Shown in pieces: positions 7,218 through 12,561 of a stretch of DNA of 12,952 bases. Made by a program: the position numbers and the translations under genes. This DNA is from Verrucomicrobiota bacterium (GTDB taxonomy: Bacteria; Verrucomicrobiota; Lentisphaeria; Oligosphaerales; Oligosphaeraceae), in contig JAKLHU010000014.1 of assembly GCA_022709995.1 (NCBI GenBank), positions 1 through 12,952 of the forward strand, given 5' to 3'. Every line of letters starts with the position of its first letter. Within the stretch, counting starts at the first letter, position 1. The notes below the pieces were generated by a model. That model did not search any database. It worked only from the letters and a program-made list of their open reading frames with translations, and had not been told where the DNA came from.

Positions 7218-8117
7218 TTATTGACCGGTCCGCACCAGAACCAGATCGTAGGTGACCGCCTGACCAGTGAACTTGACCTTGGCGCCAGTCCCGGGCTGCG
7301 GCAACGACGGCGACACCAGCTGCAAGCCACGGCCGTGCAGACTGTCGACAAACGCTTGCAACTTGCCATCGGCCAACTGAATTTTTCCCGTCAAACTGCC
7401 GGCTTGGGAATCAGATTCCGCCCAGACGATCGCACCGTTGCCGTCCTGCGCCAAACGGTCAAGAAGCCGCCGGCCCTGCTGCAAATCAGCCGTTGTCCAG
7501 ACATGCCGTACCGTCGCCGGCAGATAATGCTGCGCCGCCGGCGCGGCCGGCCGGGCGCCGTTGCGGTCGATGCCGACGGCCTGGACATCATTGCCGTTCA
7601 CAGCGCCTGCCGCCCGGAGGCGACTGGGACGCGTCTCAGGCAACGCCGCCACCGCCTCACCGGCAACGGGCTTCTCCGCAAGCGTCGTTTCCACGGCAGT
7701 CCCTGCGTCCTGGTTTTGCTGGGCCAGGGTGACGTCCGCGCCGGTCGACCCGGAATGGGCATAGCGCATGACCACCGCCGCCGCCAACGCCAGGACGGCC
7801 ACCACGGCCGCCGCCTGCACCACTCGGAACGCGCGCAGGCGCCACGGCCTGTCGGCCGGTTCCTGCCCCGAGGCCTTGACGGCCGCCAGAATCCGCTTTT
7901 CCAGGCCGGCCGGCGGCCGGCACACGGCAACCACCAGCCGGTCCAACTGGCGATACGCCTCCACCGTTCGCCGGCAGACATCGCAGGCGTCAACATGGCG
8001 GGCAATCGCGGTCATCTCCAGATCGCCCTCGGTGGCGCCGCAATCGCAAAAAACGCTCAAGTGCTCCGGCGCCGGGCAGCTGTGTTCGTAACTGTTCGTA
8101 ATCATCGCGTTCACCAT
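7218..8117 (-). CDS. Putative membrane anti-sigma factor with zinc-finger N-terminus
   Basis: A 299-residue single-pass membrane protein encoded directly after an ECF sigma factor (87-bp gap, same strand), the standard arrangement for a sigma/anti-sigma pair. The N-terminal cytoplasmic part contains a zf-HC2-type H-x3-C-x2-C motif (H41, C45, C48), with further cysteines C24 and C26 nearby. One hydrophobic helix lies at about 99-118 (VVQAAAVVAVLALAAAVVM). The remainder (about 120-299) would be periplasmic: an Ala/Thr-rich linker, then a globular-looking domain with RHVWTTADLQQGRRLLDRLA and a beta-rich end VTYDLVLVRTGQ. I do not recognise this domain as a named family. It may be the stress-sensing or cleavage-regulated part. 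Start ATG at 8117 has AGAAGAG at 8127-8133; an in-frame ATG at 8105 is a less supported alternative. Confidence 0.82.
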   Translation of the reverse strand: MVNAMITNSYEHSCPAPEHLSVFCDCGATEGDLEMTAIARHVDACDVCRRTVEAYRQLDRLVVAVCRPPAGLEKRILAAVKASGQEPADRPWRLRAFRVVQAAAVVAVLALAAAVVMRYAHSGSTGADVTLAQQNQDAGTAVETTLAEKPVAGEAVAALPETRPSRLRAAGAVNGNDVQAVGIDRNGARPAAPAAQHYLPATVRHVWTTADLQQGRRLLDRLAQDGNGAIVWAESDSQAGSLTGKIQLADGKLQAFVDSLHGRGLQLVSPSLPQPGTGAKVKFTGQAVTYDLVLVRTGQ

Positions 8118-8204
8118 GGGTAAAGGCTCTTCTCGCGGTTCGTCTCAATATGTAATTTGGTTTGTCAGCTCAAAGTTTGCCTGTCCATCTTGCCACGGGG
8201 CGGA

Positions 8205-8801
8205 TCACAGGCCAAGCCGCTTCCGCAACTCTTCCCGCCCGCGGGCGATCCGCGACTTGATCGTACCCAGCTTGCAGTCCAAGGTGCTGGCAATATCCTC
8301 GTAGCTCATCTCTTCCACGTTGCGCATCACCAGCGCTTCCCGGTAGATGTCCGGGAGATTGTCCAACTCGTCGCGCACATTCTGCTCCAACTCCGTGAAC
8401 ACGCTTTTCGCGTCCGGCGCCATCCGGCCATCCGGAAGATCGATCTTGCGTTCCTCGCCGCTGCCATCGCCGCTCCCTTCCAGCGGAGCGTCGATGCTTA
8501 TATTGACCTTGCTCCCGCGGATCTTGTTCCAGCGATATTTGTTTTTGGCCAGATTCATGGTGATCCGATACATCCACGTCGTGAATTCAGCCTCGCCACG
8601 AAACCTCGGCAAAGCCCGATGAATGCGGATGAAGACATCCTGCGCGACCTCTTCGGCGTCCTCGCGACTGCCCAGAACGCCATAGGCGATCTGATAGGCC
8701 CGGCCCGAATACTTGCCGACCAGAATTTCAAAAGCCGCTTCATCGCCCTGTTTGAATCGTTCAACCAGTGCTCTGTCGTCGTTCATCGCTGTCTTTGACA
8801 T
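8205..8801 (-). CDS. ECF (group 4) RNA polymerase sigma-70 factor, RpoE/SigW-like
   Basis: A 198-residue alternative sigma factor. Region 2 (about 11-91) holds the core-binding and -10 recognition segments, including DAEEVAQDVFIRIHRALPRF and TTWMYRITMNLAKNKYR. A variable acidic linker (about 100-135) follows. Region 4 (about 137-192) has LPDIYREALVMRNVEEMSYE and the recognition helix around LGTIKSRIARGREELRKRL. There is no region 1.1 or 3, as expected for ECF factors. Start: the ATG at 8801 is preceded by AGGGGG (8811-8816) at nine bases. An ATG at 8810 abuts that site and a TTG at 8825 has none. The next gene is its probable anti-sigma factor, and DUF58/BatA genes follow, suggesting a stress regulon that includes its own operon. 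No confident ECF-type promoter was identified upstream. Confidence 0.93.
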   Translation of the reverse strand: MSKTAMNDDRALVERFKQGDEAAFEILVGKYSGRAYQIAYGVLGSREDAEEVAQDVFIRIHRALPRFRGEAEFTTWMYRITMNLAKNKYRWNKIRGSKVNISIDAPLEGSGDGSGEERKIDLPDGRMAPDAKSVFTELEQNVRDELDNLPDIYREALVMRNVEEMSYEDIASTLDCKLGTIKSRIARGREELRKRLGL

Positions 8802-8878
8802 CGCTTTCATCCCCCTGTTCCACAACGGGGCAATTTTTTGCCGCCGGACCTGGACTTGCCGCCGTCCGCACCGCCCAA

Positions 8879-9998: not shown

Positions 9999-11252
9999 TT
10001 ATTTGTCGTCAAGCGCGGTGCAGCCCGGCAGCTCCTTGCCGCTCAAAAACGCGAGACTGGCGCCGCCGCCCGTGGAAATGTGCGTCATCTGGGCGGCCAG
10101 GCCGCTTTGATTGACGGCGCTCACGGAATCGCCCCCGCCGATGATGCTGACCGCGGCGGAATCGGCCACGGCCTGGCACACGCCCATGGTCCCGGCCGCG
10201 AACTTGGCCATTTCAAAGCAGCCCATCGGCCCATTCCAGACCACGGTCTTGGCAGCCTTGATTTCGGCGGCATACAGCTTCACGGTTTCCGGACCAATGT
10301 CCAGCCCCATCCAGCCCGCAGGAACGTCCTTGCCAACGACTTTCGTGTTGGCGTCGGCATCGAATTTATCCGCCGCGATGTTGTCCACCGGAAGCAGGAA
10401 TTTGACGCCGGCGACTTTGGCCGTGGCCAGCGTCTCCTTGGCGGTTTCGAGCAGGTCGTCTTCGCACAGCGACGCGCCGACCTCATGGCCGAGCGCTTTC
10501 AGAAAGGTGTAGGCCATGCCGCCGCCGATCAGGATCGTGTTGACTTTGCGGATCAGGTTCTGCAAAACTTCCAGTTTGCCCGAAACCTTGGCGCCGCCGA
10601 TGATCGCCACAAAGGGCCGCTGCGGCTTCTCCAAAGCCAGGCTGAGATAATCGATTTCCTTCTGCATCAGGAAGCCAGCGACGCTCGGCGCCCCTTTGGC
10701 GCGCATGTGCTTGCAGATGACCGCCGTCGAGGCGTCCTTGCGTTCCGCCGTGCCAAAGGCGTCGTCGACATAGATGTCACCGTAGGAAGCCAGTTTGGCC
10801 GCCATCGCATCCTGCTTCGCCTTGTACTCGGCCTTGAGCTTGGCGGCGTCCTCGTCGCTCAAGCCATCGGTCTTGGGCTTGGCCTGTTCGCCTTTTTCGA
10901 AACGGGTGTTCTCCAGCATCAGGACTTGGCCAGGGGCCAACGCGGCGACGGCGGCGTCGGCCGCCAGACAGTCGGGAGCGAACCGGACCGGCTTGCCCAG
11001 GACTTTGGCCAGATATTCTGCCACCGGCTTCAGGCTCAGTTCCGCCTCGTAGCCTTTGGCTTTCGGACGGCCCAGATGGCTCATCAGCGTCAGCGCCGCG
11101 CCTTTCTCAAGGATGTACTTGATGGTCGGCAGGGCCGCTTGAATGCGCGTGTCGTCCGTGATCTGGCCATCCTGGAGCGGGACGTTGAAATCAACCCGCA
11201 TGATGACTTTTTTCCCGGCGAACGATACGTCTTTTACCGTCTTCTTGTTCAT
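9999..11252 (-). CDS. pgk: Phosphoglycerate kinase
   Basis: Transfers phosphate from 1,3-bisphosphoglycerate to ADP in glycolysis; cytoplasmic monomer. The 417 residues show the family signature [19 protein letters not shown] (18-36; substrate residues R19, D21, N23, R36), SHLGRP (58-63), [15 protein letters not shown] (161-175) and GGAKVSGK (219-226, K222 phosphate binding). WNGPMGCFE (339-347), GGGDS (372-376) and the C-terminal GGGASL (395-400) complete the nucleotide site. A charged insertion of roughly 15-20 residues (about 122-155) makes it longer than the usual 390-400. The ATG at 11252 is chosen because GGAGGT (11262-11267) sits nine bases upstream. The frame continues to 11312 but that extension lacks family similarity. 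First gene of the minus-strand block, followed by tpiA. Confidence 0.97.
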
Positions 11253-11317
11253 TGGTTGCTTACCTCCAAAGAGCTGGTGCACATGTTCTCCCGCCTCCCC
11301 TGCCTGCCGCATCGCCT

Positions 11318-11326: not shown

Positions 11327-11385
11327 CACCGGTTTTTCCGTCCGGAACTGCACCGGCCGGTTTTTTCCGCGCCGCGTCCGATAAG

Positions 11386-11725
11386 ATGAAACGTAAACGT
11401 CCATTCGACGCATGGAGCCGACGGCGAATCCTCCTTGACCCTAAGCCCGAGACGACAAAAAGCCACTCGGCTGAGTCAACGTCAAGGCGGAGCTTGGAGC
11501 CGTACCGGACACATACTGTAATGCAGGGTTCGCCGGCTGTTCAATGCCCGGATGGACGCTTACGGCGCGCCACTGCCACGGGCGGCTTTTCGCTGCCTGA
11601 GGGTTACTGTATGCCATGAGTCTGTGCCTGCGTTAGGCACGGAATGAGCGCTTACGATGAAACCGATCTGGTCGAAAGGACGACCAGGGGCCTTGTCTGA
11701 CAAGCTACGCTTGCCGCCGGCCAAC
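11386..11725. ncRNA. Highly structured non-coding element, candidate RNA or ORF-less RNA mobile element
   Basis: About 340 bp in the 565-bp gap between pgk and the secreted-protein gene. CGTAA-A-CGTCCAT (11392-11404) pairs with ATGGACG-C-TTACG (11552-11564): 12 pairs and one mismatch, closing a domain of about 170 nt. Inside it, ACGGC/GCCGT (11421-11425/11499-11503), TCC-T-CCTTGAC/GTCAAGG-C-GGA (11429-11439/11481-11491) and CCGAG/CTCGG (11447-11451/11466-11470) nest in series. CATACTGTAA (11512-11521) matches TTACTGTATG (11604-11613) with one mismatch and crosses the closing helix. Perfect hairpins lie at 11624-11640, 11668-11687 and 11701-11713. The structure begins three bases after ATGA (11386-11389). 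It does not look like tRNA, tmRNA, RNase P, SRP or 6S RNA. A HEARO/IscB-omega-RNA-type element is a hypothesis. Strand is undetermined; plus is slightly favoured by the ATGA and GAAA-type loop. A 77-codon plus-strand frame inside is judged spurious. Confidence 0.6.
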
Positions 11726-11765
11726 TAAAAAACGCCCCGGAGTCGCGTTGGCGGCCCCGGGGCGT
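11726..11765 (-). terminator. Intrinsic terminator of the secreted-protein gene
   Basis: ACGCCCCGG (11732-11740) pairs perfectly with CCGGGGCGT (11757-11765). The stem continues inside as GTCGC/GCGGC with one wobble around a GTTG loop. On the minus strand it is followed by six T residues (11732-11727), the classical form, and lies about 50 bp past the stop of the gene at 11818-12561. Confidence 0.85.
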
Positions 11766-11817
11766 CCCTGCGGGAATACGGCTAATGCCGGATCCTTGTT
11801 TTATACCTCAACAAAAC

Positions 11818-12561
11818 TTATTTGGCAGGTTCGGCTTCGGCTTTTTTCTTCTCGATTTCGGCCTTCAGCTTGCTGATTTCCTCGTCGTTCGTCTTCAGAT
11901 ACAGGGTCTGGTTGCCGGCGACATACTGATAGTTGCGGGCGGGATGGATCTGATAGATGCGGAACAGGGCGTTGACGAACAAAGCGTATTGACGGAACAC
12001 GCCGTCGAGCTCTTTCTGCAGGGCTTCCTTCTTGGTCGCGTCCGCTTCCTTTTCCAGCGCTTCCCGCAGTTCGCGGATTTTGGCAGCCCGGACGTCACGG
12101 GCCTGAATCGCTCGGCCGAACGTCTCGGCGACGGTGCCGACCTTCAGATAAATCGTCGAATTCACCCGGTTGTATTCATATTCGCGACGGCCGCCAAGAC
12201 CGAAAATGACATCCATGTAGGTCGTCAATTCCGCAAACTGCTTCGACGCGGTTTCGATGTTCTTCTGCAGTTCAACTTTTTCTTCTTCCGTCGCTTTTTC
12301 CAGTTTGGCGCGTTCCTGGACGACGAAGTTGGCCAGCAGTGCCCGGCGCTGCAGAGCGGCGGCAAAGGCCTGTTCCATGGTCATCAGGGGGAGGAGTTTG
12401 TCTTCCAGCTTGGCGGCTTCGTCAGCCGGGGCGGCGGCCGGAGCGGCAGCCGGGGCGGCGGCCGGGGCGGCGGCCGGGGCGGCATTCTGGGCAAAGACAC
12501 TCGTGCCAAACAGGCAAACGGCAATCACAGCAACCACGGCGCCAAAGTAATGCTTCTTCAT
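11818..12561 (-). CDS. Secreted/periplasmic Ala-Pro-rich coiled-coil protein of unknown function
   Basis: A 247-residue exported protein. The N-terminus MKKHYFGAVVAVIAVCLFG is a Sec signal peptide with probable cleavage after SVFA (residue 24). A low-complexity linker of repeated AAAP units (about 27-46) follows. The mature part is mostly charged helix with coiled-coil character (about 48-115, 145-190 and 228-245). Two short tyrosine-rich motifs 83 residues apart resemble each other: REYEYNRVNSTIYLKV (126-141) and RNYQYVAGNQTLYLKT (209-224), 8 of 16 identical, suggesting an internal duplication. There is no lipobox or transmembrane anchor after the signal. The start at 12561 has AAGGAAG just upstream. 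It is apparently monocistronic, with its own promoter (12647-12674) and terminator (11726-11765). I do not recognise the family. Confidence 0.82.
   Translation of the reverse strand: MKKHYFGAVVAVIAVCLFGTSVFAQNAAPAAAPAAAPAAAPAAAPADEAAKLEDKLLPLMTMEQAFAAALQRRALLANFVVQERAKLEKATEEEKVELQKNIETASKQFAELTTYMDVIFGLGGRREYEYNRVNSTIYLKVGTVAETFGRAIQARDVRAAKIRELREALEKEADATKKEALQKELDGVFRQYALFVNALFRIYQIHPARNYQYVAGNQTLYLKTNDEEISKLKAEIEKKKAEAEPAK
12425..12484 (-). repeat. Five tandem 12-bp units encoding AAAP
   Basis: Five consecutive 12-bp units of the form GCCGGGGCGGCG (plus-strand reading) at 12425-12436, 12437-12448, 12449-12460, 12461-12472 and 12473-12484, with at most two substitutions. They encode the Ala-Ala-Ala-Pro linker just after the signal peptide. 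Near-identity of units suggests slippage-prone, length-variable sequence. Confidence 0.9.

Follow-up and report, generated by a model that had tools for sequence, protein, structure and literature searches.

The window (the whole stretch of DNA analysed here, 12,952 nucleotides) is contig C46 of a 2.93-Mb genome (G000) that is 64% complete and divided into 692 contigs. It carries a pgk gene whose protein is closest to those of Lentisphaerae/Lentisphaeria and related metagenome-assembled genomes, the best among the matches listed reaching 73%. Its start is likely at 11252, after GGAGG, as judged from the sequence and from relatives aligned over 1-417. The neighbour upstream of pgk is a minus-strand open reading frame (11818-12561) with zero matches in Pfam, PHROGs and NCBIfam. 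It contains a 12-bp tandem repeat, GCCGGGGCGGCG, present in 4.9 copies at 12425-12483, and this repeat is a gap in the alignment with G001, one of two other genomes of the same genus (G001 and G002) that serve as references throughout. The inverted repeat that follows this frame has the form of a terminator (Table 1), and it is absent from the output of a simple terminator scan. Elsewhere in the window, an ECF sigma factor (8205-8825, minus strand) is followed by a protein that weakly resembles an anti-sigma factor (7218-8117, minus strand) and whose top NCBIfam match lies under its cut-off, and DUF58 and BatA proteins come next on the same strand after this pair (7218-8825).

Table 1. Features in and around the insert upstream of pgk (window positions; R1 and R2 are the profiles of IS66-type ends described in the text)
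Feature	Position	Strand	Basis or remark
pgk (phosphoglycerate kinase)	9999..11252	-	PF00162, E 1.2e-150 for ORF 9999-11312
Left target-site duplication, GATGAAAC	11385..11392	+	Contains ATGA at 11386-11389
Element, read as non-autonomous and IS66-derived; 263 bp, GTAAACG...CGCTTAC	11393..11655		R2 ends, 8-bp duplication, absent in G001 and G002
End 1, IS66 right-end type, reversed	11393..11475 (R1)	-	R2 40.3 bits, E 3.1e-12 at 11394-11469
End 2, internal, IS66 right-end type	11483..11563 (R1)	+	R2 30.2 bits, E 4.3e-9 at 11514-11562
End 3, outer, IS66 right-end type, more diverged	11574..11655 (R1)	+	R2 16.9 bits, E 6.2e-5 at 11577-11654
Right target-site duplication, GATGAAAC	11656..11663	+	Matches the left copy 8/8
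Hairpin-rich 63-bp segment	11664..11726		Between right duplication and terminator; absent from G001 and G002
Terminator-like inverted repeat I3	11732..11765	-	After minus-strand ORF 11818-12561; conserved in G001

Between the pgk leader and this terminator, an earlier note on the sequence had described a dense nested structure at 11386-11725 and proposed either a new noncoding RNA or an ORF-less mobile element. The closing helix is real. Its two 13-bp arms, 11392-11404 and 11552-11564, pair at all but one position and lie within inverted repeat I2. Folded as RNA, the plus strand of 11386-11725 beats 100 of 100 dinucleotide shuffles (z -3.05), and the minus strand gives z -2.36, with 3 of 100 shuffles equally good. 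The excess is strongest in 11393-11563 (z -4.4 on the plus strand and -3.8 on the minus strand, in both cases matched by none of 150 shuffles), each half of which reaches only -0.2 to -1.6 by itself. Values are lower to the right of it, both in 11564-11655 (z -2.1 plus, 0.0 minus) and in 11656-11725 (-1.7 plus, -2.6 minus). Because both strands are unusual, the fold points to a palindrome in the DNA. Ends 1 and 2 together form exactly such a palindrome, of 171 bp, and its arms are the nested helices of the earlier note; by the profile matches in Table 1, the main helices arise where inverted copies of an IS66 right end pair with each other. The claim of a new noncoding RNA is not supported.

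Nor is 11386-11725 a single unit. It takes in the element, the target duplications (less the first base of the left one) and almost all of the 63-bp segment beyond them. The hairpins noted on the right exist, one within the element (11624-11640) and two outside it (11668-11687 and 11692-11704); both of the latter fall in the 63-bp segment, which folds modestly (z -1.7; 13 of 200 shuffles equally good). A search for relatives of this segment in 20 genomes, including its own, returned nothing beyond a 20-base match (E 0.096). It may be a separate small insertion.

The outermost ends of the element carry the terminal motif of IS66: compared with GTAAGCG, the GTAAACG at 11393 agrees in 6 of 7 letters and the reversed motif at 11655 in all 7. 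We compared the 8-mers flanking every pair of GTAAGCG-like motifs in the window (6 or 7 of the 7 letters matching, spaced by 60-4000 bp). Among the 46 pairs, 11393/11655 is the only one with identical flanks, the runner-up agreeing at 5 of 8 positions; as a chance background, 232 of 3,321,267 sampled 8-mer pairs were identical. The outer arms themselves match at only 13 of 20 positions. As an alternative inserted unit, the inner pair 11393/11563 was rejected, its flanking 8-mers matching at only 3 of 8. The ATGA to which the earlier note drew attention is indeed at the left edge, but it is part of the duplicated GATGAAAC. A 77-aa frame at 11386-11619 has no Pfam match, tnpC (PF03050) was not found within the element, and blastn of the window with an IS66 copy from G001 (contig C104, described below) turned up no tnp sequence at E<=0.001. 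An integron attC site, prompted by a GTTAGGC within the element, was also considered and set aside: no paired box was seen by eye, and the IS66 ends account for the sequence.

The three ends were first delimited with a profile, R1, built from 12 ends. Four of these come from the window's own genome, which makes R1 circular for the window, and R2 was therefore built from the other eight ends, which come from G001 and G002 only. R2 recovers all three ends in the window (Table 1). Applied to 28 sources (153,905 bases), it gives a single match at E<=1, at locus L002 on contig C661 of the window's own genome (E 1.3e-6). The element is made up of end sequences alone, three IS66 right-end copies of which two face one another. 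It has no transposase.

The same site upstream of pgk can be compared in both sister genomes. In G001, 8 bp separate the match to the pgk leader from that to the terminator (354 bp in the window), and a single target-like GACAGAAC stands in place of the window's GATGAAAC. The counterpart in G002 is GATAGAAC; the G002 sequence diverges from AAAAAAACGC onward and the contig then ends, so G002 supports an empty site on the left side and at the target only. At the end of that contig (L155, G002:C213), a long GAATTAT tandem array takes the place of the terminator and following gene found in G001 and the window. R2 detects no IS66 ends upstream of pgk in G001 or G002, nor in any of the pgk upstream regions L154-L160 from seven genomes. 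The insertion leaves part of the length difference unexplained, namely a further 63 bp and about 13 bp left of the target. Loss in both G001 and G002 may be an alternative, two genomes being too few to exclude it. Insertion in the window's lineage is favoured because the duplication brackets the element, and the direction of change would thus be one gain and not two losses.

Related ends are dispersed through the genus. A search of the own genome with the region returned one further partial match (76% over 72 bases, contig C661), and among 59 genomes including the own, matches at E<=0.001 occurred in three: the own genome, G001 (two places) and G038 (one, E 7e-4). A second full-length copy was found neither in the own, 64%-complete genome nor in the 58 others searched. 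The copy on G001:C25, used as a query against 30 genomes at E<=0.1, matched 7 places in G001 and 8 in G002, several of them short; matches in other genomes were weak, and 11 of the 30 had some match. With R1 at E<=0.01, the places number at least six in G000 (three of them in the window), at least nine in G001 and at least seven in G002, and at least 5 of 29 genomes across the family have a match, the ones beyond the genus trio being G017 and, weakly, G018; these counts are lower bounds because scoring covered 150 of about 500-2,200 first-look candidates in each genome. Two more R1 matches in G000 are weak (C55, 27.6 bits; C568, 21.8 bits) and are not used as evidence. A distant blastn search of a plasmid collection returned no match.

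In alignments, the ends share a common order, from a terminator-like CGGGTGGCTTTTT through ATTTGAGTTACTGTAATGCAAGATTCGACGTCGGCT to a final ATGGACGCTTAC. Just past the IS66 right end in G001:C25 (L005, 166-235) is a short imperfect palindrome ending in GTGTTAGGT that looks slightly attC-like by eye. One locus in G001 (L018, contig C83) has both ends; its flanks, TTTGGTAC and TTTGCGGA, match at 4 of 8 positions, and it is not counted as support. Some of the dispersed copies look old, given the like surroundings of L165 in G001 and L168 in G002 (83% over 1,884 columns) and of L181 and L174 (93% and 92%, one figure per side).

What ties these ends to IS66 is their position next to transposase gene sequence. 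At three loci, a match to the 3' tail of tnpC is joined to the end: L007 (90% over 59 columns), L017 (78% over 88) and L002 (70% over 149; all at the nucleotide level), the last being in the window's own genome. Because these three solo ends join tnpC 3' tail matches, we take the dispersed sequence to be the right end of an IS66-family element. The reference genes are those of G001:C104 (L129), where the tnpA, tnpB and tnpC frames are open and a matching left end, GTAAGCGTCCATTCAGGACAT, precedes tnpA. Here tnpC matches PF03050 (E 2.1e-70) and NF033517 (E 1.9e-89), tnpB matches PF05717 (E 8.2e-31) and also NF033819, and tnpA matches NF047593 (E 3e-15) with no Pfam match. No right end is present on the assembled contig, and the right end of this copy is missing or rearranged. 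In L129 1-122, the usual tnpC terminator hairpin survives as its first arm, after which other sequence runs as far as the contig end; a 46-base part of this tail is matched, in opposite orientation, by L005. None of the copies seen combines both ends with the full set of genes. When the G001:C104 proteins were searched by tblastn, no tnpC remnants appeared in L007, L017 or L002 (E<=0.01), and its open frames, compared with 18 loci and the window, matched only their own copy and, distantly, L131 in two places. The window's own genome has no PF03050 match, which may be because it is incomplete.

The sequence shows the IS66-type ends, the 8-bp duplication, a connection of such ends with IS66 genes and two sister genomes without the insert, and we are highly confident that the element derives from an IS66-family insertion sequence of this Lentisphaeria genus and reached the site upstream of pgk by transposition. 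In this respect, the suggestion of an ORF-less mobile element is supported by the duplication, the related ends elsewhere and the two relatives whose pgk site lacks the insert. The ends and the duplication suggest mobilisation in trans: an IS66 transposase supplied from elsewhere would have recognised 11393 and 11655 as the outermost ends and placed the unit in GATGAAAC, in the gap between pgk and the neighbouring gene's terminator, duplicating 8 bp. That it moved as the present 263-bp unit seems probable to us, with a good deal less assurance. The element is presumably inactive at present.

A different last step would make the element what is left of one or several complete IS66 copies that decayed by deletion in place, rather than a miniature that had itself moved. 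Most of the related ends in G001 and G002 do look like solo, decaying right ends, some of them at seemingly orthologous sites (L165/L168 and L181/L174), and three ends lie within the one locus here; internal deletion after insertion could still yield the observed structure. Against it, the outermost ends are precisely those that the perfect duplication flanks, R2 classes all three ends as right-type, and the blastn search described above found no tnp sequence in the window. We regard this history as a possible but clearly less favoured one; since it differs from the preferred reading in its last step only, the confidence given to each overlaps.

Bolder is the idea that a right-right-right IS66 miniature still moved, one type of end sufficing in this lineage, and that its palindrome now insulates pgk from upstream transcription, which strikes us as rather unlikely. 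Any effect of the insert on pgk is speculation, because a consensus scan found no sigma-70 promoter in the region. Very improbable is a cis-acting regulatory RNA or attenuator of pgk that resembles insertion sequence ends by chance. Its position upstream of pgk and its wealth of hairpins would fit, but both same-genus genomes lack the sequence in front of pgk, R2 finds nothing in L154-L160, and the element lies upstream of the conserved, promoter-like GTATATTATA of pgk and so probably does not belong to the pgk transcript. With Rfam, neither the window, nor the local region, nor any of four loci came near a gathering score; the best local match by E-value, Bp2_287 at 11729-11820 (E 0.017; 20.6 bits, where the cut-off is 70), coincides with the terminator and is regarded as a chance hit. 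Least credible of all is the HEARO or IscB omega-RNA element without its ORF to which the earlier note had likened the region, which agrees in its size of about 300 nt, dense structure, left-edge ATGA and lack of an ORF, but for which there is no match in the window (E<=10) or in three genomes of the genus (E<=1), in a search whose control was weak (a match in 1 of 14 control genomes, none above the cut-off). The ATGA here belongs to the 8-bp duplication, and the helices are IS66 ends.

The preferred reading, an IS66-derived insert upstream of pgk, holds a lesson for the structure-based discovery of noncoding RNAs: here, a strong nested fold in an intergenic gap of an uncultured bacterium proved to be a DNA palindrome of transposon ends. 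A target duplication, an end profile that leaves out the genome in question and an empty site resolve the matter quickly. In addition, dispersed IS66 ends are now documented in a poorly known genus of the Lentisphaeria.

Altogether, the element is an ordinary non-autonomous IS66 derivative, a known kind of mobile DNA. HEARO RNAs are reported to adjoin ATGA or GTGA. The element resembles HEARO RNA (RF02033) and the IscB omega-RNA in being ORF-less and structured and possibly in its adjacent ATGA, which here is part of the 8-bp duplication; it differs in having no covariance-model match and in owing its structure to a DNA palindrome of insertion sequence ends. MITEs usually occur in several near-identical genomic copies, and we call the element MITE-like, rather than a member of an amplified MITE family, because one full copy and one partial match are all that was found. 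MITEPsy1 is 100 nt long and probably derived from ISPsy2 (PMC3189936). Like this bacterial MITE, the element is short and ORF-less, with inverted ends that match an insertion sequence and with a target duplication; unlike MITEPsy1, it is IS66-derived, has an 8-bp rather than a 4-nt duplication and three ends per unit, and is without a near-identical second copy among those found. A non-exhaustive literature search, based partly on excerpts, yielded no description of an IS66-derived MITE. The closest comparison is with IS66 itself, whose terminal repeats are reported to be 20-30 bp long and to start with GTAAGCG, with 8-bp direct repeats (PMC11946415). The IS66 elements ISPpa5a and ISPpa7 measure 2829 and 2731 bp, respectively, and each has direct repeats of 8 (PMC3281130). 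Compared with these two, the element is only 263 bp long and lacks tnpA, tnpB and tnpC. It is like ISPpa5a, ISPpa7 and the IS66 insertions of Frankia in its GTAAGCG-like ends and 8-bp duplication, and right ends of its type are attached, within the same genus, to sequence like the tail of tnpC.
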